Assembly (NCBI GenBank): GCA_026415035.1
Contig: JAOAHX010000004.1
Span: 1-64,000, forward strand
Direction: 5' to 3'
Source of the DNA: Thermodesulfobacteriota bacterium
GTDB taxonomy: Bacteria; Desulfobacterota; BSN033; UBA1163
Length of the DNA: 64,000 nucleotides
Part shown: positions 1,771-17,325 of the stretch, in pieces
How positions within the stretch are numbered: position 1 is the first letter of the stretch
Layout of the letters: each line of letters starts with the position of its first letter
Notes under the pieces: model-generated
Database searches by the model: none
Seen by the model: the letters and a program-made list of their open reading frames with translations, nothing else
What the model was told of the DNA's origin: nothing
Position numbers and translations under genes: made by a program

Positions 1771-1814
1771 ATTAAAAAAGGGCTGGGCGGGCTCTTAACC
1801 TTACCCCCCAGCCC
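1771..1814 (-). terminator. Rho-independent terminator after mvhA
   Basis: Read on the minus strand, GGGCTGGG (1814-1807) and CCCAGCCC (1787-1780) form an 8-bp stem with a long loop, followed directly by TTTTTTAATT. It begins about 10 nt after the TAA of the recoded hydrogenase large subunit, which supports TAA at 1822, not the UGA at 1918, as the true end of the gene. Confidence 0.8.
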
Positions 1815-1821
1815 TTCTCCT

Positions 1822-3264
1822 TTACTTCCGGAAGGTTTCGATCACGTTTCCTTTTGAATCGACGATGGTGAGCTCGATTGCAAGACCGCCGTCCAGGCGG
1901 TGAATGGCGCAGCTGAGTCAGGGGTCGTAGGCACGTATGGCCATTTCTACCCTGTTGAGAATCCCCTGATCGTATTTCCCATCCTTGATGAAGGTTTTGG
2001 CGGTCTGGTTGACCGAAAGATTCATCGGAGCGTTGTTATGGGTCGTCCCGACGATCAGGTTCACCTTGGTCACGAAGCCATTTTCATCGCACGTATAATC
2101 ATGGATCAGGGTGCCTCGCGGGGCCTCCACACATCCCACTCCCCTGCCCGCCTTGGGCGTGACCGGTGTCCTGACATTGGGATTGGTGATCTCGGGGTCG
2201 TTCAGGAGTTCCACCATGGTCTCGGCCACCTGAAGGAGCTCGATCAGCCGGGCGTAGTGGTAGAGGAGGGTGTAATGGGCGGGCCGGCCGAAGGCTGCCC
2301 GGAACTCCTCCAGTTCGGCCTGGGCGAGCGGGGTGGCCATCTTGTCGGCCACGTTGATCCGCGCCAGGGTGTTGGACCGATAGACGCCGACAGGATTGTC
2401 CAGGGAGAGGTTGAATTTGCCCCACTTCTTGGCATAGGGAAACTTCTGATAGGTCCAGGGCATGACCGCCTCGCCGATGTGGTCGAGGTACTGGTCGTAG
2501 GTGAAGTCGTCATAGGAGCCATCCGGTTTCATCAGACGGATCTTGCCGTCGTAAAACTCCAGCGCTCCGTCGTCCCTTACGGTGCCGATGTATCCCACCT
2601 TGATGACGCCGAGGGTCTTGATGGCGTCCATATACTTCGGAAAGACGTTCTCCTTGGCGAACTTCATCGTAAACTTCGAGAACTCCAAGAGCTCCTGGGC
2701 GGGGCCGAGGAGCTTCTTTCGCTCCGCTTCGGTCATGGGCTTGCTCACCCCGCCTGGCACCGAGAAGGTGGGATGGATGGCCCTTCCGGCAAAGCCTTCC
2801 AGCATCTGGGCGCCGAGGTGTCGCATATGGACGACCTGTTTGGCCAGATCGGGTGCGGCCTTGACGATCCCGACCACGTTCCTGACCGAGGGATCGGCAT
2901 CTGGACCGAGGACGAAGTCCGGGGCGGCCAGGAAGTAGAAGTGGAGGATCTTGTCGCTGACATAGGCGATGCTCTGCATCAGGCGGCGAAGTTTGATGGC
3001 CGTGGGCGGCGGGGTGACGCCGAAACAGCCATCGGTCGCCTTGCTCGATGCGAGGTGGTGGGCCCAGGGGCAGATGCCGCAGATATGGCAGACGATCCGG
3101 GGCATCTCCTCGACGGGCCTGCCTTCGCAGAACTTTTCAAAACCTCTAAGGTTCTGACCATGGACTTTGGTATCGACCACGTTTCCTGTATCGTCCAGGG
3201 TGATCGTAACCCGCGTGTGACCTTCGATCCGTGTGATCGGCTGGAGATTGATGACTTTGCCCAT
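1822..3264 (-). CDS. mvhA: [NiFeSe] hydrogenase large subunit MvhA/VhuA type, selenocysteine-containing
   Basis: Catalytic large subunit of a group 3 (Mvh/Vhu-type) hydrogenase, which splits H2 at the Ni-Fe centre. The N-terminal ligand motif CGIC is at residues 62-65. A conventional reading ends at residue 448 with RAYDP, immediately before the second ligand motif. Reading the UGA (1918-1920) as Sec449 continues as DP-U-LSCAIH and 25 more residues to a TAA at 1822, for 480 aa in total. This restores the family motif DPCxxCxxH with Sec449 at the first Cys, Cys452 as bridging ligand, and the His455 processing site. A hairpin at 1885-1901 fits a bacterial SECIS. The ATG at 3264 follows AGGAGG with 8 nt spacing. 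It is the last gene of the qmoC-hdrA-mvhDGA operon. The protease encoded at 10448-10984 is the likely partner that removes the 25-residue tail. Confidence 0.93.
1885..1901 (-). promoter_or_regulatory. Candidate bacterial SECIS hairpin in mvhA
   Basis: On the minus strand ACCGCC, loop TGGAC and GGCGGT form a perfect 6-bp stem starting 17 nt after the UGA. The loop begins 23 nt downstream, and G is the second loop base. Distance and loop G match the usual bacterial SECIS layout, which SelB binds to insert Sec. Confidence 0.7.
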
Positions 3265-3277
3265 AGATTCTACCTCC

Positions 3278-4222
3278 TCATTTGGCAGGACGCGGGGGGA
3301 GGACCTTCAGGACCCCGTGCGCCCCGATATAGCGATTCAAGGTGGCCCGTCTATCCACCACGGAGTTCGGATCCATGCCGACCGATGCGAGCGCCCCCAT
3401 CATATCCATCAGGGGGTTGGTATCCTTCCGGATGGGTCCGAAGCAGCCCCGGCAGGGGGTTCTGGCCTGGATGCAGCGGGGAACTCCGCTTTTGCCGGCA
3501 CAACCCGCAAGGGTGACCGGTCCCTGGCAGAGGAAGCCCATCTCGTTGATGCATCGCATCTTGTCGAGCCCCTCTTCGGGGTTGAAATCGAGATTCTGGA
3601 GAAAGCGTTTCACCGCCCCACCGCCGGATTTCTTCTCTCGGATCGTCGGACAGGTGTCGCAGACGCTCCGTTCCGGTAGGCTCCAGGACGTTGCGCCGCC
3701 GAGGAGGGCCAGAACCGCATCGGCGATCCAGTCGGGGTGGGGAGGGCAGCCTGGGATGTAGACATCCACCGGGACGAATTCGTCCAAGGCCTTACACGAC
3801 GGGATGAGCTCAGGGACGTTGGGATCTTTGGGAGGGGGAGAAGGCTCTGTGGAGGGGCAATCGCGATAGACCTTCTCCAAGAGCTCCTCTTTCTTCCACA
3901 TATTGGCCTGTGCCGGGATCCCACCGTGGCAGGCACAGGTGCCCAGGGCGACGAGAAACTTCGACTTCTTTCGAATCTCCTTCAATTCGTGGACCATCTC
4001 GTCGGTCCGGATGCCTCCCGAAATGATGGCCACGGGCGCCTCCGGGACCTCCATATCCTGTTTCTCCCCTAACTGGCCGAAGAGTTTGTTGTCGACCAGC
4101 GGAGGGATGTGGACAAAGTTGATGTGAGGCAGGAGGTCCACCAGGGGGTCTCCGATGTTGAGGATGGAGATTTCGCAACCTGAACATGCATTCAACCAGT
4201 CTTCAAAGACATTGACGGCCAT
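3278..4222 (-). CDS. mvhG: [NiFe] hydrogenase small subunit MvhG
   Basis: Electron-transfer small subunit, 314 aa. It starts directly with the proximal cluster motif: Cys13 and Cys16 in ACSGC. Further conserved cysteines lie in LGTCACHGG, PGCPPHP and a C-terminal cluster-rich stretch. There is no Tat signal peptide, so the enzyme is cytoplasmic, as expected for Mvh-type enzymes. The open frame extends to 4288, but the ATG at 4222 has AAGGAGG upstream and fits family length, so it is preferred. mvhA starts 13 nt downstream. It should relay electrons from the NiFe site of MvhA to the [2Fe-2S] protein MvhD and then to HdrA. Confidence 0.95.
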   Translation of the reverse strand: MAVNVFEDWLNACSGCEISILNIGDPLVDLLPHINFVHIPPLVDNKLFGQLGEKQDMEVPEAPVAIISGGIRTDEMVHELKEIRKKSKFLVALGTCACHGGIPAQANMWKKEELLEKVYRDCPSTEPSPPPKDPNVPELIPSCKALDEFVPVDVYIPGCPPHPDWIADAVLALLGGATSWSLPERSVCDTCPTIREKKSGGGAVKRFLQNLDFNPEEGLDKMRCINEMGFLCQGPVTLAGCAGKSGVPRCIQARTPCRGCFGPIRKDTNPLMDMMGALASVGMDPNSVVDRRATLNRYIGAHGVLKVLPPRPAK

Positions 4223-4241
4223 ATTAACCTCCTTTTGAGTC

Positions 4242-4291
4242 GGTATGCCGTGGCCCCATCCGATGCTTTCATCATCCATCCCCGGCATACC
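4242..4291. repeat. Intercistronic inverted repeat between mvhD and mvhG
   Basis: GGTATGCCG (4242-4250) and CGGCATACC (4283-4291) are perfect 9-bp arms with a 32-nt loop, placed in the 116-nt gap between mvhD and mvhG. In the transcript it would form a hairpin just before the mvhG ribosome-binding site. Possible roles are mRNA processing or setting the subunit ratio. No T-run follows, so it is not an obvious terminator. Confidence 0.5.
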
Positions 4292-4338: not shown

Positions 4339-4788
4339 TCAGGGATGGGCGTGGATTTCGGGCACCTCTTGGGAAATCGTTTTATAGGGGTTCGGTCCCA
4401 GCTTCTTGATCTGTTCGGTGAACTCGGTCACGATCTGGGCGAATCGGGGACCCTCGGCCGAGGAGACCCACTCCACCCGGAACCGTTCCTGTTCGATCCC
4501 GATGTCGTCGAGGACCAGGCGAATGGCCTCTGCTCTCTTTCCGGCGATCACATTACCATCCTGGTAATGGCAGTCGCCGATGTGTCAGCCACCCACCAGG
4601 ACGCCATCTGCCCCTTTGGTCAGGGCATCGATGACCAACCGTGGGTGGATCATCCCGGAACACATGACCCGGATGATCCTCAGGCTGGGGGGATATTGCA
4701 ACCTCGAGACGCCTGCAAGATCGGCGCCGGCGTAGGCGCACCAGTTACAGCAGAATCCGATGATCAGGGGTTCAAAGGTATCCTTCAT
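4339..4788 (-). CDS. mvhD: MvhD/VhuD [2Fe-2S] subunit, selenocysteine-containing
   Basis: Delta subunit that carries electrons from hydrogenase to HdrA. The N-terminal half has the family cysteines FCCNWC (13-17) and Cys43 in RVMCSG. The reading frame meets UGA at 4585-4587 (codon 68) directly after DGVLVGG. Downstream in the same frame the protein continues [11 protein letters not shown] to a TGA at 4339, giving 149 aa and the family's usual length. Cys-containing MvhD has GC-H-x-GDCHY here, so the UGA replaces the conserved Cys, as in the selenoprotein VhuD of Methanocaldococcus. A strong hairpin follows the UGA. The ATG overlaps the hdrA stop (ATGA), implying translational coupling. Confidence 0.92.
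4542..4579 (-). promoter_or_regulatory. Candidate bacterial SECIS hairpin in mvhD
   Basis: On the minus strand an outer stem CGGCGA/TCGCCG encloses an internal loop (CTGC/TGA) and a perfect 7-bp inner stem CATTACC/GGTAATG with loop AGGAT. The apical loop starts 23 nt after the UGA, with G second. It is the strongest of the three candidate SECIS structures in the operon. Confidence 0.8.
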
Positions 4789-7700
4789 ACGGCGACCTCC
4801 AATGCAGCATTGAGTTGGGCTGCGATCTGTTTCAGTTTGAAACCGCGCACCACGATCCCCTCTTTCGGGCAGGTGGCCATGCAGACGCCACATCCTTTAC
4901 AGAGGACTTCGTTGACCTCCACGAACTTCTTGATGGAATCTCCCCTCACATACTCCACCAGGTTGATGGCCTCGTATGGGCAGGGGCTCACGCAGTAGGC
5001 GCAACCGTCGCAGTTCTCGTCGATGACCCTCGAGATCGTCCCTTCCAGTTCGATCGAGTCTTTGGCCAGAACCGTAGCGGCCCTCGAGGATGCGGCCTGA
5101 GCCTGGGAGATGCTTTCTTCGACCGCCTTGGGGAAGTGGGCCATGCCGGCCAGGAAGACACCGTCGGTGGCAAAGTCGATCGGACGGAGCTTCATATGGG
5201 CCTCGAGGAAGAACCCATCCTTGTTGAGAGGAACCTTGAAGAGTTGACCCAGTTCCTTGTTGTCCTCGTTCGGAACCACTCCCGCGGAGAGGACCACCAG
5301 GTCGGCGTTCATGGTGAGGGGGATCCCCAGGGTCTGATCGAAGACGTTCACCTTCAGGCCGTTACCGCTTCGCACCACCTCAGGCTTCCGATCCTTCTCG
5401 AACCGGATGAAGGCAACGCCCTTCTGCCTCGCCTGGGTGTAGTACTGTTCTTTGAAACCGTAGGTCCTCACATCCCGATACAGGACGTAGACGTTGGTCT
5501 CGGGTGAGAGCTCCTTGATCTTCAGGGCATTTTTGACCGCCTCGTTACAGCAGAGCCTCGAACAGTAGGGTCTTTCCTCGTCGCGAGAGCCCACGCACTG
5601 GATCATCACGACGTTCTTGACCTCCCGGCCAAGGCCGCCCTGGGCCAGTTTCTGCTCGAGCTCCAATTGGGTCAGGACCCTCTGGTCCGAGCCATAGAGA
5701 TACTCTTTGGGCTGGTACTCCTTCGAGCCGGTGGCGATGACGACGATCCCATGCTCCAGCTCTTTGGAGGTCCCATTGGAGGAGACGGTGGTCTTGAAAT
5801 TCCCCACGAACCCGTCCACCTTTTCGATCTTCGCCTGGGTGAAGAGCTGAATGTTTTTGTGCTCCTTCACCTTCTTGATCAAGGATTGGAGTTCGTTCTG
5901 GGTTCGGGTCCCGTCGATGAGATAATGGATCTTCTTGAGGTTTCCTCCCAGTTCCTTCTCCTTCTCCAGGAGATAGACCTGGAAGCCCTGTTCCGCCAGA
6001 TCGAGGGCGGAAGTCATCCCGGACAGACCGCCACCGATGACCATGGCGGCCTTGTTGACCGGGACCTTCATCATTTCGAGAGGCTCCAGGAGCCTCGCCT
6101 TGGCTACCGCCATCCGGACGAGGTCCTTGGCCTTTTGGGTGGCCTTTTCGCGCTCATTCATGTGCACCCAGGAGCATTGGTCGCGGATGTTGGCCATCTC
6201 GAAGAGATAGGGATTGAGCCCTGCCTTTCGGACCGTGCTCCTGAAGAGGGGTTCGTGCGTCCTCGGCGTGCAGGCCGAGACCACCACCCGGTTCAGGTCG
6301 TACTCTTTGATCTTCTCCCGGATCTTATCCTGGGTGTCGTTGGAGCAGGTATAGAGGTTGTCCTCCACATAGACGACGTTGGGAAGGGTCTTCGCATACT
6401 CCCTGACCTCGGGGACGTTGAGAAAGCCTCCGATATTCGATCCGCAGTTGCAGACGAAGACCCCGATGCGGGGTTCCTGGCCGAGGACATCCTTTTCGGG
6501 CGGGAACTCCTCTTTCTTGATCAGGGTGCCCCTGGCCTCCTTCAAAAGGGAGAGGACCCTTGAGGCTGCGCCGGAGGCCTCCATCACCGTTTCGGGGATG
6601 TCCTTGGGCTGGGTGAAGGCACCGGCCAGATAGATTCCTTCCCGTTTCGACTCGAGGGGCCGGAAGGGCGAGGTCTTGCAGAACTTGAACTCGTTCAGCT
6701 CGATGCCGAAGGTCTGGGCCAGGCGCTCCACGTCCTTGGGAGGCTGGGTGCCGATGGAAAGGACCACCATGTCGTACTCGCGGGAGGCTTTGACATCGCC
6801 ATCCGTGAGATATTTAATGATCAGGTTCCGGGTCCCGGGCACCTCCTCGATGGAGGCCGGTCTGGACCGGATATAGTTGACTCCTAACTGTTTGGCCCTC
6901 TCATAATATTCATCGAACCCTTTGCTGAAGGCCCGCATATCCATGAAGAAGATGTCGCATTGGAGATCGGGCCCAAGGTGCTCCTTGGCGATGATCGCCT
7001 CTTTGGTGGCGAACATGCAGCAGAACGAGGAGCAGTAATCGTTCTCATGATCCCTCGAACCGACGCACTGGACGAAGGCGATCCGTTTCGGTTCCTTGTG
7101 ATCCGAGGGCCGGACCACATGGCCCCCAAACGGTCCGGAGGCCGAGAGGATCCGCTCGAACTCGAGCGCTCCGATCACGTTGGGATACCGCCCGTAGCCG
7201 TATTCGGGTTTGCCCGTGGCATCGTAGAGCTGATATCCGGGCGAGAGGATGATGGAGCCGACGTTGAGCTCCACCCGCTCTTCCTTCTGGGTGTAGACCA
7301 CGGCCTGGGCCTCGCAGCGCTTCATGCACTCTTCGCATTCGATACAGCCCTCGATCTGTCCCGCGAGGCACCTGGAGGCCTCTTTGACGGCCTGTTCGGG
7401 GGTGAATCCCAGGGCCACCTCCTTGAAATTCTTCACCCGTTCCGCCACGGGCAGTTCGTTCATGTGGACGCGGCTTGCGGCCGGGAAGCGTTGTTTCAGT
7501 TCCACGACCTTCTGGTCGCCCATCTTCTCGGGCTTCTTCACCTCTTTTTCGACCTTGATGGGCTGGCCCTTGAGGTAGCGGTCGATGGCCGCGGCGGCCT
7601 TCTTTCCCGCAGCGATCGCATCGATGACGTAGGCCGCTCCGGTGACCACATCGCCACCCGCAAAGACGCCTTCCACGTTGGTCGCCCCTGTTTCGGGATC

Positions 7701-9260
7701 GACCAGGATGGTCCCGTTCTTGGCGGTGTTGACGTTCAGCTCCTTTAAAAACCCGACATCGGTCACCTGACCGAGGGCGGCGATGACCGTATCGACGGGG
7801 ACCCTGAACTCCGACCCTTTGATCGGGATGGGACGCCTTCGGCCGCTGGCATCGGGCTCCCCGAGCTCCATCTTGATGCACTCCATCTCGGCCAGTTTTC
7901 CGTTTTTGGCAAAGAACTTCTGTGGAAGGGTGAGGAAATCGAGCTTGACCCCTTCGGCCAGCATCGCCTCGATCTCCTCTTTGGCCGCAGGCATCTCAGC
8001 CCGGGTCCGTCGATAGACGACCCGAACCTCCTCGGCTCCCAATCGCAAGGCGGTCCGGGCACAGTCGATGGCCGTATTGCCTCCTCCGACCACGGCCACC
8101 TTCTTTCCCAACTCGACCTTCTTTCCGAGGTTGACGGCCTGGAGGAATTTGATCCCGTCGGTGACCCCGGGCAGATCGGCCCCTTCGCCCTCCAGTTTCA
8201 TCCCACCCGGAGCGCCCATCCCGAGGAAGATGGCCTGATAATCCTTCTTCAGGGCGCTGATGGGGATATCCTTGCCGACCGCAACGCCGGTCTTGATCTC
8301 CACGCCCAATCTCTTGATGTAGTTGATCTCCTGGGCGAGGACCTTTTTGGGCAGACGGTATTCGGGAATGGCATAGCGCAACATCCCGCCCGGCTCGGGC
8401 AGGGCCTCGAAGATCGTGACCTCGTGACCCTTCAGGGCCAGGTCATTGGCCGCCGCAAGCCCGGCCGGCCCCGCCCCGATCACCGCCACCTTCTTCCCTG
8501 TTTTCGTGATCTGAGGAACGGGAAGCTCGTCGGGATTGACCTGGTCGGCCACGAACATCTTGAGCTCCCGGATGGCGATGGGCTCATCGAGCTCTCCCCG
8601 GTTGCAGTTGGCCTCACAGGGCGCGTAACAGACCTTTCCGCAGACGGAGGGGAGGGGGTTGACGGCCCGGTTGAGCTCGTAGGCCTCCTTGAACTTCCCC
8701 TGGGCGATCAATTTAATATATCCCAGGGCATTAGTATTGATCGGACAGGCATACATGCAGGCCGCCTTGCAGGGCCGTTCCTCGCGCTTGTCGATCGTCG
8801 CCTTGTTGGGGATGGATTGGGGAAAGAGGATATAGACGGCCTTTCGGTCCGAGAGCCCGACCTCGAACTCGTTCTTCATGAAGACCGGGCAGCCCGCAAA
8901 GCAGAGGCCGCAACCGGTACATTTGGTGATGTCGATATAGCGGGGCTTCTTTCGGATGGTGACCTGGAAGTTTCCTGGTTCTCCTTTGACACTCTCGATC
9001 TCACTTAACGTGATCAACTCGATATCTTTATGCCGGCCGACCTCGACCAGTCTGGGCGCGATCGTTCACATCGCGCAGTCATTCGTGGGAAAGGTCTTGT
9101 CGAGCTGGGCCATCACCCCGCCGATCGAAGGTTTGCTGTCGGCCAGATAGACCTTGATGCCCGCTGCGGCCAGATCGAGCGCAGCGGCCATCCCGCCAAT
9201 CCCGCCGCCGACGATTAGGGCGGCACCTACTTTCTTACCGTTCGTCTTAGGCTGTTGCAT
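4785..9260 (-). CDS. hdrA: HdrA-NfnB-HdrA fusion flavoprotein, selenocysteine-containing
   Basis: A 1491-aa flavin/iron-sulfur protein read through a UGA at 9066-9068 (Sec65). The N-terminal 64 residues hold the FAD-binding VGGGIGG and end in NDCAM. After the UGA the frame goes on as [12 protein letters not shown], matching HdrA (NDCSM-C-ILAPK) with Sec for Cys. Then come a ferredoxin-like motif CTGCGLC (about 113-125), an inserted GltD/NfnB-like module with two nucleotide folds (GAGPAG about 255, GGGNTA about 393), the HdrA core with GCIECEEC (about 635) and QCVGSRD (about 735), and a second HdrA-like half with GGGLSG (about 1070). Two C-terminal [4Fe-4S] sites sit at about 1410-1475. It is the likely bifurcation centre between hydrogenase, NAD(P)H/ferredoxin and QmoC. 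The ATG at 9260 follows AGGAGG and overlaps qmoC by 14 nt. Confidence 0.92.
9033..9050 (-). promoter_or_regulatory. Candidate bacterial SECIS hairpin in hdrA
   Basis: On the minus strand CTGGTC, loop GAGGTC and GGCCGG form a 6-bp stem with two G-U pairs, starting 16 nt after the UGA. The loop begins 22 nt downstream and resembles the AGGUC-containing loop of the E. coli fdhF SECIS. The stem is weaker than in mvhD. Confidence 0.6.
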
Positions 9261-10410
9261 ATTTGGAAACCTCCTTCTGGGACCATTGGGGTTGTATCGT
9301 CCCCTTTTTGGGTTGTAAGGCGATGGCCAGTGGCCGATAGATCATATGGGTCCATTTGCCGAAAGGCATTTCGATGACGAGCATGGGCACGGCGATCAAC
9401 AGGTGAATGGCATAAAAGTAACAGGTGGCCAGTTCGAGTCCGGAGATCCTGCAGATATGGAGGATGATCCCGCTCAGGGCCGTCCCGAAGAGGAGGAGCA
9501 GAAAGGTCCAATCCTGAAGCTCGGACGATTTATAGACCTCTTTCTCCTTCTTCATCCGGTCGATGAGGATGCTGCCGGTGCCATAGAGGAGGAAGAAGGT
9601 GGCCAGATACCCGATCCATCTCTGGGGATGGAAGATGGGGTGGATCTCCTCGGTCTGGAACCACCTCAGGGCAAAGACCTTGACGAAGAGCATCATCAGG
9701 CAGCCCAGGCCGATGAAGAGGTGTTCCACCCACCGGCTCTTCCCCGTCGGACACTCGGCCATCTTTTTATAGGTGAAGAAGTGGACGAAGAAGGTCGCGA
9801 CGCGGGAGAGAAAGGAAGGGGCTTCTCCTCGGACCTGTTCGGCCCCTGATGAGACCATCCCGTACATCCGTAAGGCATTGGTCAAAAGGATCAGGAACGG
9901 AAGGAGAATCACCACCCATGTAAAATAGGTGATCATCGGAAACATATGGCCCACCCCCAGCCCCGTAGAGGCCAGTTCCGAGAGGCTCATCTTCGCCCCA
10001 TAGATGTGGTAGAGGACGATGAGCAGAAAGACGATGGCCGCGACGATGGCGAGAGAACCGATGTACCACCCTTTGGAGCGGTTGATCAGGGAGGCGATGC
10101 CGGTCCAGTCGTAGGCCGAGACCAGATACCGTCGCAGGGTCATCATCGATTCCTGGGGTTTGGTCTCCCGGGGGCAGGTCGTGGAGCAGTCGCCACAGTC
10201 GTGGCAGACCCAGGGATCGATGCTCTGAAGGAGGGCCTGCTTGACGCCCGTGATGACCATACGCATCGGCCTTCTCGGGAAGGTAGCCTGGTCCTGCGAG
10301 AGTTCACAGGCCAGGGTGCAGCTGCCACAGTTGAAACATCCCTCCGCATCGAATTTCCCGTATTTGCGGACTTCGGACATCAGTTTCAAATCTGCTTCGT
10401 AGTAATTCAT
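9247..10410 (-). CDS. qmoC: QmoC-like membrane iron-sulfur/cytochrome b subunit
   Basis: A 387-aa fusion of an HdrC-like ferredoxin part and an HdrE/NarI-like membrane part. Two CxxCxxCxxxC motifs (CFNCGSC... about residue 26 and CHDCGDC... about residue 68) bind [4Fe-4S] clusters. About six hydrophobic segments follow from residue 105, with histidines able to bind heme b. In sulfate reducers QmoC passes electrons between menaquinone and soluble Hdr-like subunits. Here it is the first gene of the hydrogenase operon, so it probably anchors HdrA-MvhADG to the inner face of the membrane. The frame opens at 10419 (GTG), but ATG at 10410 is correctly spaced from AGGAG. Confidence 0.85.
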
Positions 10411-10447
10411 TCCCGCCACTCCTTTCTGAAGTTCTTGACCTCCGGGT

Positions 10448-10984
10448 TCATCCTCGACACGCCTTCAATACCTCCTGCGCAGCCAGGGGCAGGCTTTCTT
10501 GTAAGGGATCGGAGAGCCCTGGCTTCACCTCTTCGGGAAGGTGCGCGATCTGTCCGGCGATGATGAGGACCTCTATGTCGCAAAATTCCTTGAGCTCTTT
10601 GAGAAGATTGGAGGTTGGCATTTCGTGGAGGGTGAAGTCATCGATTTTATTCAGTGGCATCTCATCGATGTCGATCGGGAAGACCGTCCCGGGTTCCCTC
10701 CCGAGGTCGACGGCGTCTACGACGATGATCTTTTTGGGCCGATGGGACGAGAGGAGGATATCGAAGAGGATCCCTCGAACGCTGGTTCCTACATTGAGGA
10801 GGGAGACATTTTCCGGGACCCTTTCATGTTTCTGGAGATACTCGATCACGCAGGGGCCGAACCCGTCGTCTCCAAAGAGGATATTGCCACATCCCAAAAC
10901 GAGGATGTCTCGATACTGGGTCTCGCTTTCGTTCCGATATTCGACCTTCAGGATGCTTTCGTGGAAGTTGGGGGCTGACTTCAT
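10448..10984 (-). CDS. Hydrogenase maturation endopeptidase
   Basis: HycI/FrhD-type protease, 178 aa from the ATG at 10984. It has the family signatures GCGNILFGDDGFG near the N-terminus, an internal VDAVD metal-binding Asp and the HEMPTSNLL histidine region. These proteases bind the nickel in the immature large subunit and clip its C-terminal tail. It lies directly upstream of the qmoC-hdrA-mvhDGA operon (about 37 nt gap), so MvhA with its 25-residue tail after His455 is the obvious substrate. An in-frame upstream start at 11047 would add 21 residues of unconserved character. Confidence 0.88.
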   Translation of the reverse strand: MKSAPNFHESILKVEYRNESETQYRDILVLGCGNILFGDDGFGPCVIEYLQKHERVPENVSLLNVGTSVRGILFDILLSSHRPKKIIVVDAVDLGREPGTVFPIDIDEMPLNKIDDFTLHEMPTSNLLKELKEFCDIEVLIIAGQIAHLPEEVKPGLSDPLQESLPLAAQEVLKACRG

Positions 10985-11082
10985 GCCAGCTGGTTTTCCT
11001 CGTCCTTCAATCGGCGACGAAGTCCGTATGGATCTGCCAAAAGGCAATGGGGTGAGTTCCCCTTTTCAAAGGGCATTCATCC

Positions 11083-11625: not shown

Positions 11626-12297
11626 ATGAAAGTCGTTAGACCGAGAGGTCCGGAAATTTTCGACATCGAGCTGGAGAAGGATCTGCTGGACAAAAATAGG
11701 CGCCTTGCAAGAGAGAACAGGAAAAGATTCGATCGGTACAAAATCACCGCCATCGACGTCATGGGCTCCATCGGTTCGGGAAAGACCTCCTTGATCAAAG
11801 CCCTTTTGAAGAAGCTGAAGATGGGCGAGGCGGTCGGCGTGATCGCCGGAGACCTCACGACCACGATCGATGCCGAGAGAATCCAGGAGGAAGGCGCACG
11901 GGTCATCCAGATCAACACCGGAAAGGAGTGCCACCTCGACGCCCATCTGGTTGGCCATGCCCTCGAGAAGATGGATCTCGACGGGATCCGGATCCTCTTC
12001 ATCGAAAATGTGGGCAATCTCATCTGTCCTGGAGAATTTCCCCTGGGCACCCATAAGCGCATCGTCGTGACCTCGGTCACCGAAGGGCCCTACATGATCA
12101 TCAAACATCCCTATATCTTCAAACAGGCCGATGTCATCGTCCTCAATAAGATCGACCTCGCCAAGGCGATGAACGTGAGCCCCGCTCAGTTGAAGGCCGA
12201 TGCGGAAAGGGTCAATCCCCGGGCGGCCTTCGTCAAGGTCAATGCCCTCAGAGGGACGGGGATCGCCGAAGTGATCCGTCACCTGAATCTCTCTTGA
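11626..12297 (+). CDS. hypB: Hydrogenase nickel incorporation GTPase HypB
   Basis: 223-aa SIMIBI-class GTPase that drives nickel insertion into the hydrogenase large subunit together with HypA. The P-loop GSIGSGKTS is at residues 47-55. The metal-binding Cys/His segment GKECHLDAH and the NKID base-specificity motif are present. It lacks both the CxxCGC N-terminus and the His-rich nickel-storage tract found in some HypB proteins. It is followed by hypA at a 40-nt spacing on the same strand. Confidence 0.95.
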   Translation: MKVVRPRGPEIFDIELEKDLLDKNRRLARENRKRFDRYKITAIDVMGSIGSGKTSLIKALLKKLKMGEAVGVIAGDLTTTIDAERIQEEGARVIQINTGKECHLDAHLVGHALEKMDLDGIRILFIENVGNLICPGEFPLGTHKRIVVTSVTEGPYMIIKHPYIFKQADVIVLNKIDLAKAMNVSPAQLKADAERVNPRAAFVKVNALRGTGIAEVIRHLNLS

Positions 12298-12337
12298 AGC
12301 TCGAGGACATCGCCCCGATGGGATTCGAAACGGACCG

Positions 12338-12709
12338 ATGCACGAATTTTCGGTCGCCTCCGACATCGTCGATCAAGTTCTCGAGGCAGCCCGAAAGAGA
12401 GGGGGAAAGCGGGTCCTCTCCGTCCGCCTCGACATCGGAGAGCTGACCCTCCTCAACGCGGAACAACTCCTCTTCTGGGTGAAGGAGCTCTTCAAAGGTT
12501 CGATCGCCGAGAATGCTGAGATTGCGGTCAAGATCATCAAGGCCAGGATCTCCTGCGCGGAGTGCGGCTACCGAGGAGGCACCCGAGAGGATCAATGCGA
12601 TGCGATCGGCCACCAAATCCTTCCCCTATGCCCTCGGTGTGGTTCCCTCCAAGTCGAGATCGAAAGGGGAAGGGAGTGTCTCCTCAGAGGGATTCGGGCC
12701 GAGAGGTAA
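12338..12709 (+). CDS. hypA: Hydrogenase nickel metallochaperone HypA
   Basis: A 123-aa metallochaperone. The nickel ligands are Met1, His2 and Glu3 at the N-terminus (MHEFS), and the zinc site is formed by Cys73, Cys76, Cys98 and Cys101. The segment between the zinc cysteines, with several polar residues and an extra Cys87, is longer than in the E. coli protein. It is co-oriented with hypB and convergent with hypE, which ends 19 nt away. Confidence 0.93.
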   Translation: MHEFSVASDIVDQVLEAARKRGGKRVLSVRLDIGELTLLNAEQLLFWVKELFKGSIAENAEIAVKIIKARISCAECGYRGGTREDQCDAIGHQILPLCPRCGSLQVEIERGRECLLRGIRAER

Positions 12710-12728
12710 AGGCAGAGGTCTCGTTCCC

Positions 12729-13739
12729 TCAGCAGATCCTCGGATACTGGGTGCCAGTGAGCATATCGAGGATGCGGTGGCCTCCGATGAGGGTATGGAG
12801 GACGACCTTCCCGGGGTGGTCCGCCACGACCCTCCCGATGATCCGGCTCTCCCTGCCCAGAGGATGGGCTCTCATCGCCTCAAGGAGGCGCTCCGCATCT
12901 GATCTCGGGCAGAGGGCAATCAGTTTCCCCTCGTTCGCGAGATAGAGCGGATCGAGCCCCAGCAGTTCGCAGATCCCTTTTACGGATTCCCTCACAGGGA
13001 TCTCTCTCTCCTCGAGGACGATCCCGACATTAGACTTTGAGGCGATCTCGTTCAGCGTCGTCGCCAGCCCGCCCCGGGTGGGGTCGCGCATACATCGGAT
13101 CGACGGGCAGGCCCCGAGCATCATTTGGACCAGGTCGTTCAAGGGAGCACAATCGCTCTTCAGATCACCCTCGAAGCGAAATCCCTCCCTCTGGGAGAGG
13201 ATGGCAAGTTCGTGGTCTCCGAGGAAGCCGCTGAGCAGGATCGCATCTCCGGGTCTGGCCTTCATCCCCGAGAGTTCGAGGCCGGGTTTAACCCATCCAA
13301 TTCCTGCCGTATTGATGAAAAGCTTATCTGCCGCGCCATGCTCGACCACCTTGGTGTCGCCGGTAACGATCTCGACCTTCGCCTCTTCCGCGGTCTGGCG
13401 GATGGAAGAGAGGATCCTTTTCAGGTCGGAGAGAGGAAAACCCTCCTCGATGATGAAGGAGAGGCTGAGAAAGGCGGGGATGGCCCCGAGCATGGAGAGG
13501 TCGTTGACCGTGCCACAGACCGCAAGCCTTCCGATGTCTCCTCCCGGGAAAAAGAGGGGGTTGACCACATAGGAGTCGGTCGTAAAGGCGATCGGTCCGC
13601 TTCGGGGGTCGATCCTTGCGCTGTCATCGAGGAGACGGAGCATGGGATTGGAGAACTCCGGCAGGAAGAGCTGTTCGATGAGATCGTGCGCAAGCTTTCC
13701 GCCACTTCCGTGGGCAAGGAGGATCTTCTCATCGGACAT
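12729..13739 (-). CDS. hypE: Hydrogenase maturation protein HypE
   Basis: 336-aa AIRS/PurM-fold ATP-dependent dehydratase that converts the S-carbamoyl group on its C-terminal Cys to thiocyanate, the source of the Fe-bound CN. The N-terminal glycine-rich HGSGGK, the metal-binding DDSA and the terminal PRIC with Cys336 are all present. The fold is shared with SelD and ThiL, but the PRIC tail makes HypE certain. It is the last gene of hypF-hypC-hypD-hypE and lies 9 nt after hypD. Confidence 0.97.
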   Translation of the reverse strand: MSDEKILLAHGSGGKLAHDLIEQLFLPEFSNPMLRLLDDSARIDPRSGPIAFTTDSYVVNPLFFPGGDIGRLAVCGTVNDLSMLGAIPAFLSLSFIIEEGFPLSDLKRILSSIRQTAEEAKVEIVTGDTKVVEHGAADKLFINTAGIGWVKPGLELSGMKARPGDAILLSGFLGDHELAILSQREGFRFEGDLKSDCAPLNDLVQMMLGACPSIRCMRDPTRGGLATTLNEIASKSNVGIVLEEREIPVRESVKGICELLGLDPLYLANEGKLIALCPRSDAERLLEAMRAHPLGRESRIIGRVVADHPGKVVLHTLIGGHRILDMLTGTQYPRIC

Positions 13740-13748
13740 AGGGCTTCC

Positions 13749-14840
13749 TCATTGGCTCCTTTCCGGAGGAAAGCGATAGTAGGTATGGCAGGTGCCTTCG
13801 AAGGAAACCATACATGGGCCAACAGGCTCCTCAGGATGGCAGACCGTCCCAAAGAGACGGCACTCCAGAGGAGAACGGACCCCCTGAATCACCTCTCCAC
13901 AGAGGCACTCGGGATGCTCGATCGAGGGTTCCACTTCAATGTCGAAGCTTCGGGCATCCAGATCGGCATAGGCCTCTTTGAACCGATACCCGCTCTCCGG
14001 TATCGGTCCGAGACCCCGCCAGAGGGCGCCGTCCACCTCGAAGACCTCGGCGATCGCCTCCCTCGCCCGGGCGTTTCCGTCCTCCTCGACGACCCTCCGG
14101 TATTGGATCTCGACCTCCGGCCTCTCCTCCTCGATCTGGCGGAGGAGCATATAGATCCCCTGGAGGATGTCGAGGGGTTCGAAGCCCGCGATGACGCAGG
14201 CCTTGCCGAACTCCTTTACAATGAACCGATAGGGGTTGACCCCAAGGATGGTGGAGACATGGCCGGGAAGGAGGAACCCGTCGACCTTCACCCGGTTCGA
14301 TTTTAGGAGGGCCGAAAGGGCAGGGGGAATCCGCTTCTGGCTGTTGAGGATAAAGAGGTTTCGGATCCCCTCCTCCTTGGCCTTCCGGATCGCCACCGAG
14401 ATCGTAGGGGTCGTGGTCTCGAATCCGATGGCGAAAAAGACCACCCTTCGCGTCGGGTTCTCCCGGGCGATCCGGATGAGGTCGAGGGACGAGTAGATCA
14501 TCCGGATGTCCCTTCCCTCGGCCTTCTCCTTCTGGAGGCTCGACCGCGAGCCCGGGACCTTCATCATGTCGCCGAAGGTGAGGAGGATCGTCCCGTTCTG
14601 CCGGGCCAGGGCGAGGCCGAGATCGATATCCTGATTGGGGGTGACGCAGACCGGGCAGCCCGGACCCGAAAGGAGCCTCACCTGCTCCGGCAAAAGGTTC
14701 CTCAGCCCCGAACGGAAGATGGAAACGGTATGGGTCCCGCAGACCTCCATGAGTTGTACAGGCCGTTTGGAGGTCTTCTCGATCCTCTTCAGGATTCCCC
14801 TGGCCAGGTCCCCATCCCGAAATTCATCGATGAACTTCAT
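13749..14840 (-). CDS. hypD: Hydrogenase maturation protein HypD
   Basis: A 363-aa iron-sulfur scaffold on which, with HypC, the Fe(CN)2CO unit is assembled. The conserved motifs MEVCGTHT, GPGCPVC and AIGFETTTPT are present, as are the C-terminal cysteines (ECLCGEVIQG and a later CRLFG) that ligate the [4Fe-4S] cluster. Its ATG overlaps the hypC stop (ATGA), so the HypC and HypD partners are translationally coupled. Confidence 0.97.
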   Translation of the reverse strand: MKFIDEFRDGDLARGILKRIEKTSKRPVQLMEVCGTHTVSIFRSGLRNLLPEQVRLLSGPGCPVCVTPNQDIDLGLALARQNGTILLTFGDMMKVPGSRSSLQKEKAEGRDIRMIYSSLDLIRIARENPTRRVVFFAIGFETTTPTISVAIRKAKEEGIRNLFILNSQKRIPPALSALLKSNRVKVDGFLLPGHVSTILGVNPYRFIVKEFGKACVIAGFEPLDILQGIYMLLRQIEEERPEVEIQYRRVVEEDGNARAREAIAEVFEVDGALWRGLGPIPESGYRFKEAYADLDARSFDIEVEPSIEHPECLCGEVIQGVRSPLECRLFGTVCHPEEPVGPCMVSFEGTCHTYYRFPPERSQ

Positions 14841-15055
14841 GCCGACTCTGCAAGCTCGTTCAGAATCCTTAAGGTCTCCTGCGCCTCGGCCTCGTCCACT
14901 TTATGGATGGCAAATCCGGAGTGGATGAGGACATAATCTCCGACCGAGACATCGGGGCAGAGCTCGATGGAGATCTCCCGGGTCACGCCTCCCACGTCAA
15001 CCTTGGCCACATCCTTTTCGATTTCGACGATCTGTCCGGGGATGCCTAAACACAT
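14837..15055 (-). CDS. hypC: Hydrogenase maturation chaperone HypC
   Basis: A 72-aa HypC/HupF-family chaperone starting MCLGIPG. Cys2, exposed after Met removal, binds the iron of the Fe(CN)2CO precursor and the hydrogenase large subunit. The rest is the usual small beta-barrel with a C-terminal helix. It overlaps the hypF end by 10 nt and hypD by 4 nt. Confidence 0.96.
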   Translation of the reverse strand: MCLGIPGQIVEIEKDVAKVDVGGVTREISIELCPDVSVGDYVLIHSGFAIHKVDEAEAQETLRILNELAESA

Positions 15056-17325
15056 GAGAACAACCTCGCCTGGGCGATGACCGCCTGGCCGAGCGAGAGG
15101 CCTCCGTCGTTGGCCGGGACCTGATGGTGGAGGAAGGTCTCGAATCCTTCCTTTTTTAGGGCTTCTGTGGTCAGGCTGAGGAGGAAGATGTTCTGGAAGA
15201 CCCCTCCGCTCAGGACGACCCGATGAAGCCCCTCCTGGGCTCGAAGGGCCTTGCAGGTTTCGACGATCATCCGGCCCACCGTTCGATGGAATTTGCCCGA
15301 GATTTTAGATGGGGAAATCCCCTCTGTCAAATCGGCCACCACCCCCCGGATCACGGGAGAGGGATCGATCACAAAGGGCCGCTCCTCTCCCAAAAGATGG
15401 AAGGGGTAATCCTCCTCGACCTCTTGGTCCGCCATCGACTCCAGTTCGATGGCCGCCTGGCCTTCGTAGTTGACCTCGTCCCTCACCGAAAGGAGCGAGG
15501 CGATGGCATCGAAGAACCTTCCCATGCTCGAGGTCAGGGGGGTATTGACCTTTTTGTGGATGGCCTCTTGCAGAATGGCCCACTTCCCAAGGTCGACCCT
15601 GTCCATCAGATCGATCTTCAAGGAGGCCCACTCCTGGCCGAAGGCCTCCGAAAGGTAGACCATGGCCATCCTCCAGGGCTGTCGGATCGCCTTCGACCCT
15701 CCGGGCAAGGGGACCTTCTTCAGATGGGCCAGCCTTTTGAATTCCTTCGGACTGACCTTCAGGAATTCGCCTCCCCAGATCGTGCCGTCAGTTCCGAATC
15801 CGGTCCCGTCGAAGGCCACGCCGATCACCTCTCCCTCGATCCCATTTTCGGCCATGCAGCTGACGATGTGGGCGTGGTGGTGTTGGACTCCCACTTTGGG
15901 AAGGTCCGGGATGGCAAGGGCGTATTTCGTGGAGAGGTAGTCGGGATGGAGGTCGTAGGCCACGGCCTTCGGCTCGATGTTGAAGAGCCGTTTGAAATGC
16001 TCGATCCCCTCTTCGAAGGAGGAGAGGGTTTCGAGGTTTTCGAGGTCTCCGATGTGGTGGCTTAAGAAGGCGTAGGGCCCACGGGTGAGGCAGAAGGTGT
16101 TCTTCAGCTCTCCGCCGCAGGCCAGGATCATCTCGAGAGAGAAAGGGAGCTTGATGGGAAAGGGGACATATCCCCTCGATCGTCTAAGGAAGTAGGGCCT
16201 CTTGCCGAAGACCCTCAGGACCGAATCGTCACACCGGATATGGATCTCCCTGTCGTGAAGAAGGAAAAAGTCCGCGATCTCCCTGAGCCGGTTTATCGCC
16301 TCCTCGTTTTTGTAGGCGATCGGCTCTTCGCTCTTGTTTCCGCTCGTCATGACAAGGGTCCTAAGGTTCCCGCGGAGGAGGAGATGGTGAAGGGGGGAAT
16401 AAGGGAGCATCACCCCCAGGGTGTTCTGATAGGGGGCCACAGAGGGAGCAATCGGAATGTTCCTTTTTCTCTTTAAAATCACGATAGGCCTTTCCGTCCC
16501 CTTAAGGAGCCTCTCCTCCTCGGGGTCGACCTCGCAATACCTTTTGACCTCTTCGAGATCCCGGCACATGAGGGCGAAGGGTTTGTCTTCTCGAAACTTT
16601 CTGGATCGGAGGGTGGAGACCGCCTCTTCGTTGGTCGCATCGCAGGCCAGGTGGAAACCTCCGATCCCTTTGACGGCAAGGATGGCCCCTTTCTCGAGAA
16701 GGTCGAGGGCTGTCTCTATCGGATCGCCCGGGAGTTGGTGACCCTGTCGATCCCTCAGTTCGATGCGAGGGCCACAGGAAGGGCAGGCATTGGGCTGGGC
16801 ATGGAAACGCCTGTCGGAAGGATCCTCATACTCTTTCTGACAAGAAGGGCACATGACAAATGCCGTCATGGTCGTCTTGTGCCTGTCATAAGGGATGTCC
16901 TGGATGATGGTGAACCTTGGGCCGCAGAGGGTGCAGTTGATGAAGGGGTATCGAAACCTGACGTTTTCGGGCGAAAAGAGCTCCGCCAAACAGGCCTCGC
17001 AGGTGGCAAGATCCGGGGAGATGAGGGTGAATTTTTCCGGGGCCTCCTCGCTCTGCCGGATCTCAAAATCGGAGTAGCCTACGGGCGGTAGGTAGTTGAC
17101 CTCAAAGGTCTCGATCCGGGCAAGAGCGGGGGCCAGGGCTGGGATGTCCCGAATGAACCGCTCGAGATTTCCATCCCCGCTTTCGGCCTCGATGAAGACC
17201 CCTTGCTCGTTATTGAGGACCCATCCACGGATCTCGCGACGTTTCGCCAGGTTGTAGATGAAGGGCCTGAACCCAATCCCCTGGACGATCCCGGTGATTC
17301 GGATGGTCGCTCGCCTAAGCCTCAT
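15046..17325 (-). CDS. hypF: Carbamoyltransferase HypF
   Basis: 759 aa, full length. Domains in order are an acylphosphatase-like domain (1-90, with GIGFRPF), two C4 zinc fingers (about 110-185, CEAC...CTLC and CPSC...CPSCG), a YrdC-like nucleotide-binding domain (about 200-385) and a Kae1-like domain with the metal motif HHHAH (about 475). It converts carbamoyl phosphate and ATP to carbamoyl-AMP and passes the carbamoyl to HypE Cys336. It is the first gene of the minus-strand hypFCDE operon, divergent from the coiled-coil gene at 17450. Confidence 0.97.
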   Translation of the reverse strand: MRLRRATIRITGIVQGIGFRPFIYNLAKRREIRGWVLNNEQGVFIEAESGDGNLERFIRDIPALAPALARIETFEVNYLPPVGYSDFEIRQSEEAPEKFTLISPDLATCEACLAELFSPENVRFRYPFINCTLCGPRFTIIQDIPYDRHKTTMTAFVMCPSCQKEYEDPSDRRFHAQPNACPSCGPRIELRDRQGHQLPGDPIETALDLLEKGAILAVKGIGGFHLACDATNEEAVSTLRSRKFREDKPFALMCRDLEEVKRYCEVDPEEERLLKGTERPIVILKRKRNIPIAPSVAPYQNTLGVMLPYSPLHHLLLRGNLRTLVMTSGNKSEEPIAYKNEEAINRLREIADFFLLHDREIHIRCDDSVLRVFGKRPYFLRRSRGYVPFPIKLPFSLEMILACGGELKNTFCLTRGPYAFLSHHIGDLENLETLSSFEEGIEHFKRLFNIEPKAVAYDLHPDYLSTKYALAIPDLPKVGVQHHHAHIVSCMAENGIEGEVIGVAFDGTGFGTDGTIWGGEFLKVSPKEFKRLAHLKKVPLPGGSKAIRQPWRMAMVYLSEAFGQEWASLKIDLMDRVDLGKWAILQEAIHKKVNTPLTSSMGRFFDAIASLLSVRDEVNYEGQAAIELESMADQEVEEDYPFHLLGEERPFVIDPSPVIRGVVADLTEGISPSKISGKFHRTVGRMIVETCKALRAQEGLHRVVLSGGVFQNIFLLSLTTEALKKEGFETFLHHQVPANDGGLSLGQAVIAQARLFSCV

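Follow-up and report, generated by a model that had tools for sequence, protein, structure and literature searches.

A selenocysteine-decoding Vhu/Mvh-type hydrogenase predicted from an HdrL-linked operon of a Desulfobacterota-like bacterium

The window analysed here is a stretch of 64,000 nucleotides of a contig assigned to a Thermodesulfobacteriota bacterium. Near its beginning, a gene on the minus strand (mvhA, 1822..3264) encodes an MvhA/VhuA-like large subunit of a NiFe(Se) hydrogenase. Under the standard code, the ORF spans 3264..1918 and encodes 448 amino acids ending in RAYDP. When the in-frame UGA (1918..1920, minus strand) is translated as Sec, the product continues as DPULSCAIH-RLDGGLAIELTIVDSKGNVIETFRK up to a TAA at 1824-1822, giving 480 residues in all. 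In the C-terminal motif DPUxxCxxH, Sec449 would be the first Ni ligand. The translation thus holds both Ni-ligand motifs, the N-terminal CxxC (VCHICGIC) and the C-terminal (C/U)xxC (DPULSCAIH). The 25 residues past His455 are a predicted propeptide (1822..1899 with the TAA, minus strand), which, judging from the biology of NiFe hydrogenases, would be removed by a maturation protease. The gene is followed on the same strand by a GC-rich, Rho-independent terminator-like hairpin with a U run (1772..1822; fold of -30.6 kcal/mol, z = -4.82). A terminator scan listed nothing 3′ of mvhA because it allows loops of up to 8 nt and the loop here has 10 nt. The preliminary description of this DNA had reported the UGA, the restored DP-Sec-xxCxxH motif, and the TAA with a downstream terminator, and translation and folding confirmed all of these together with their coordinates.

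The mvhA gene is the last of a minus-strand cluster in the order protease, QmoC-like, HdrL, MvhD (Sec), MvhG, and MvhA (Sec). The MvhG/VhuG-like small subunit is encoded at 3278..4288 (NCBIfam VhuG, 1.1e-52); in most relatives, the homology begins around residue 17-25, and the true start of the gene probably lies about 15-20 codons into the ORF. Next lies an MvhD/VhuD-like subunit of 149 amino acids (4339..4788; Pfam PF02662, 4.7e-53) with one TGA inside. This UGA (4585..4587) corresponds to Sec68 in the sequence VGG-U-HIGDCHY, and a UGA is found at the same codon in 19 loci, the window included. The preliminary description had overlooked this second UGA, which lies in the next-but-one gene upstream of mvhA. 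HdrL (4785..9017; NCBIfam and Pfam) is a flavoprotein resembling HdrA, into which a GltD-type NAD(P)H module has been inserted behind the N-terminal ferredoxin-like part, at residues of about 84-484. Most of the Sec relatives do not have this insert, matching at residues 1-77 and then at 560-1409. No in-frame UGA was found in hdrL. A QmoC-like membrane subunit with an Fe-S and a cytochrome b-like domain is encoded at 9247..10419 (NCBIfam qmoC, 1.4e-57, a match short of the curated cut-off), and two further genomes of the genus (G006 and G008) also have this gene adjoining the cluster. The cluster begins with a hydrogenase maturation protease gene of the HycI/FrhD family (10448..11047; TIGR00072, 1.9e-35, above the cut-off; PF01750, 3.6e-23).

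Hydrogenase maturation genes adjoin the operon (11626-17325). HypB is encoded on the plus strand (11626..12297; TIGR00073, 2.4e-76) and is followed by a HypA-like ORF at about 12.3-12.7 kb, recognised from its translation. On the minus strand, 12729..17325 encodes a HypE-like protein (AIR synthase family), HypD, and HypF, identified by Pfam, together with a HypC-like small ORF (about 14.84-15.06 kb), recognised from its translation MCLGIPGQ.

What kind of hydrogenase is this? In NCBIfam, MvhA matches VhuA at residues 1-427 (2e-141) and VhuU at residues 432-458 (1.2e-9). Thus, MvhA equals a fusion of VhuA and VhuU. The VhuA match reaches 471 of the 800 bits set as the curated equivalog cut-off, which places the protein in the same family as VhuA but not among the methanogen equivalogs. 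The nearest solved chains are the F420-non-reducing hydrogenase subunit A and MvhA (Vhu/Mvh). The large subunit is therefore closest to VhuA/MvhA, and its operon also encodes MvhG, MvhD, and an HdrA-type protein, as is characteristic of group 3c. The enzyme might instead be a periplasmic NiFeSe hydrogenase of the HysA type, oxygen-tolerant and H2-evolving, since it has Sec at the same ligand position and also matches the HysA model (3.5e-49). This is very improbable. The VhuA model fits far better, the HysA match stays at 167.9 of 780 bits, the best solved relatives are Vhu/Mvh chains, and the operon has MvhG, MvhD, and HdrL rather than HysB, with a VhuG-like small subunit. HysAB shares with MvhA a Sec at the equivalent Ni ligand and differs in its subgroup and partner subunits. 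Its location also differs, HysAB being periplasmic. Low oxygen sensitivity and a bias toward H2 production, which the preliminary description had attached to this enzyme, are traits of the periplasmic HysAB-type enzymes. Given the Vhu-type scores and the Mvh-Hdr operon, the direction of the reaction in the cell may differ from that of the HysAB-type enzymes. From its sequence, the enzyme is predicted to be a [NiFeSe] hydrogenase of the Vhu/Mvh type, located in the cytosol of a Desulfobacterota-like bacterium.

Is the UGA codon shared with other large subunits? Among 94 large subunits, the Sec449 codon is UGA in 22 (the window's own, L103, included) and a Cys codon (TGC or TGT) in 72. The homologues do not end at DP but run on through the motif with UGA or Cys. 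At 22 loci, among them that of the window and one in another species of its genus, the same codon is UGA in frame with xxCxxH; hence, it is not a product of chance or of a sequencing error. Where both subunits were readable, 16 loci had Sec in both, 51 had Cys in both, 2 had Sec in MvhD only, and 0 had Sec in MvhA only, these being counts of related loci rather than of independent events. In a quick maximum-likelihood tree made with the motif columns removed, the Sec mvhA genes cluster together, and only one Cys gene (L106) is nested among them. The Sec/Cys label changes twice on this tree, against a mean of 20 when the labels are shuffled.

A predicted bacterial SECIS hairpin, ACCGCC-UGGAC-GGCGGU, starts 16 nt past the mvhA UGA (1885..1901, minus strand) and sits in the DNA that encodes the last His and the predicted propeptide. 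The consensus of the Sec mvhA genes is ACCGCC-UGGAY-GGCGGU, and the loop offset, counted 0-based from the U of UGA, is 25 in 21 of the 22 genes. Synonymous sites are frozen within the hairpin: the Arg codon is CGC in 20 of 20 (usage 0.31), the Leu codon is CTG in 21 of 21, and the Gly codon is GGU in 15 of 19 (usage 0.14). On both flanks, the synonymous choice is freer. In two genes (L031 and L034), a C-G pair of the stem is replaced by U-A at the cost of a Gly-to-Asp change. The mean hairpin score is 8.77 for the Sec mvhA genes, in contrast to 4.88 for the Cys mvhA genes (n = 72), which by this score do not have such a hairpin. A single-sequence fold 3′ of the window's mvhA UGA is no more stable than shuffled sequences (z = 0.02), and codon-preserving shuffles gave p = 0.2 for the window's hairpin, while 11 of the 22 Sec genes reached p <= 0.05. 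With these two values, the case for an mvhA SECIS rests on comparison.

The second Sec codon offers such a comparison. A predicted SECIS hairpin of mvhD, AUUACC-AGGAU-GGUAAU (4552..4568, minus strand; fold z = -2.84), lies as far from its UGA as the mvhA hairpin does, and the loop is UGGAN in many relatives. In the mvhA and mvhD hairpins of 37 sequences taken together, 97.7% of the cells are paired, against 16-71% in slid controls. Pairing is kept in 47 cells with changes on both sides, most of which separate the mvhA family from the mvhD family, in sequences that are related and not independent. A covariance model of the hairpin was run against the genome and gave three clear matches: mvhA, mvhD, and another mvhD paralogue on contig C2. 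The next matches were weak (<=22 bits), and many of them covered only part of the model. These results give a clear rule for the predicted SECIS of the family, with the same offset and a near-identical loop in two subunits, and in mvhA within the predicted propeptide. One locus (L061, on a contig titled Desulfopertinax) has a Cys mvhA, while its mvhD has UGA and a hairpin of another sequence, GCCACU-AUGUU-AGUGGC (4806-4839).

These observations bear on whether the mvhA UGA is a true stop. A true stop would leave a truncated and inactive large subunit, as in a pseudogene or an assembly error. Standard annotation does end the ORF at RAYDP, and folding the downstream RNA as a single sequence shows nothing unusual. 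However, the same UGA is present at the 22 loci, the window's own among them, and the downstream frame, the CxxH motif, and the hairpin are conserved. Moreover, the gene is the sole large-subunit match in the whole genome, which retains the Hyp genes and the protease. A true stop is thus most unlikely. Standard annotation would cut both the large subunit and MvhD at UGA, and the only large-subunit match of the genome would therefore look dead.

Does the genome encode a Sec machinery? The assembly (3.06 Mb in 81 contigs, 97% complete) has a tRNASec gene at C4:72410-72499 with the anticodon TCA (79.4 bits, over the cut-off), a SelA match of 627.9 bits, and a SelB match of 365.9 bits. There are also two SelD genes (L018 and L019), each with one in-frame TGA placing Sec at GUAAK. 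By eye, these SelD genes appear to have a downstream hairpin of another type. The covariance model had missed these hairpins and is hence a model of the mvhA/mvhD subtype only. The genomic features expected for a bacterial selenoprotein are present: SelA, SelB, SelD, and tRNASec are all encoded; the in-frame UGA lies where homologues carry Sec (22) or Cys (72); and a predicted SECIS hairpin follows shortly 3′ of the UGA, at a fixed offset in the Sec genes. It is hardly conceivable that UGA encodes an ordinary amino acid such as Trp genome-wide, or is suppressed without Sec: in-frame UGA codons do occur in several genes, but UGA is also the ordinary stop of hdrL and mvhD within the same operon, the window has ordinary long ORFs under table 11, the homologues have Cys and not Trp at the site, and tRNASec, SelA, SelB, and SelD are dedicated to Sec. 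The Sec reading proposed in the preliminary description is thus strongly supported by the machinery and by the homologues with UGA or Cys. The mvhA UGA is almost certainly read as selenocysteine, completing the active site, and Sec decoding in a hydrogenase of the Mvh/Vhu type can be predicted from the sequence with high confidence.

The Sec-containing MvhA/MvhD family has already been described in related bacteria and in methanogens, for Deltaproteobacteria in 2006-2009. MvhA/VhuA/VhuU and MvhD/VhuD are standard selenoprotein entries in a 2026 review (PMC13188914). In Methanococcus, VhuA/VhuU and VhuD (NF041785 and NF041786) resemble the present proteins in the DPUxxCxxH Sec motif and the Vhu family match, but the Sec motif there is on the separate small subunit VhuU, while one polypeptide covers both parts here. 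A shared operon for Sec-containing FrhA, FrhD, and HdrA was reported from Syntrophobacter in 2006 (PMC1794560). The FrhA/MvhA systems of Syntrophobacter fumaroxidans and Desulfotalea psychrophila (PMC1794560), with FrhD/MvhD and HdrA, resemble the present one in their Sec-containing large and delta subunits and in the gene order hdrA-frhD-frhG-frhA. However, HdrA is Sec-containing there and the operon includes a gene for a Sec-containing GlpC, whereas here the HdrA part is contained in HdrL, whose gene is free of in-frame UGA codons and whose sequence includes an NAD(P)H module; upstream of it lies a QmoC-like gene. A 2009 paper on Desulfobacterium autotrophicum HRM2 (PMC2702500) describes MvhA2DG as a cytoplasmic Sec-containing Mvh hydrogenase and defines the HdrL type next to MvhD. 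There, the mvhA2DG genes cluster with those for Sec-HdrA1 and HysAB, and the organism is a sulfate reducer. Here, in contrast, a complete Mvh set is combined with HdrL and with a QmoC-like gene, and dsrA had no match in the genome. A limited paper search, covering titles, abstracts, and passages of PMC2702500 and PMC10553843, gave no description of the HdrL-QmoC-Mvh combination.

How might the complex work? The reading frame, the machinery, the conservation of the hairpin and the Sec sites, and the gene content can be read from the sequence, and from them the following scheme is proposed for the insertion of Sec, the cleavage, the assembly of the complex, and the direction in which electrons flow. 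SelB and tRNASec would decode the mvhA UGA (1920-1918) as Sec, directed by the hairpin just downstream, and Sec449 would become a Ni ligand of the active site. After Ni insertion, the protease of the cluster (10448-11047) would cut behind His455, and the tail whose coding DNA holds the hairpin would be discarded. Electrons may pass from MvhA to MvhG, then to MvhD, with its own Sec68 near an Fe-S site, and on to HdrL. In principle, HdrL could carry out electron bifurcation or confurcation among H2, NAD(P)H, ferredoxin, and, via the QmoC-like subunit, the quinone pool. I give roughly even chances to the path from MvhG through MvhD and HdrL to these acceptors. A more tentative possibility, which I consider somewhat unlikely as a whole, is a selenium-dependent complex in which two Sec-containing subunits with the same hairpin spacing, HdrL, and the QmoC-like subunit act as one assembly coupling H2 with NAD(P)H, ferredoxin, and quinone, in a host with no detected dsrA.

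The UGA sites of MvhD paralogues were judged by aligned positions, a plain listing of in-frame UGA codons being uninformative. Three paralogues (L137, L138, and L139) with one UGA inside the family match have Cys at the position aligned with Sec68; thus, their UGA lies elsewhere. A Cys large subunit from one of the two other genomes of the genus (L108 in G008, about 2845-2870) has its stop directly after CATH, without a propeptide, and the protease of the window, used as a query, had no match in the 15 kb locus around it (L144). L108 and L033, both Cys, are the sisters of L106 on the tree. The mvhA of L106 has Cys and the C-terminus CATM, also without a propeptide. Both subunits of L106 are Cys, yet its mvhD (codon TGC) keeps an intact hairpin (32.1 bits; 3009-3056, minus strand). 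Judged from its sequence, this hairpin appears to be a fossil SECIS, left behind when Cys replaced Sec.
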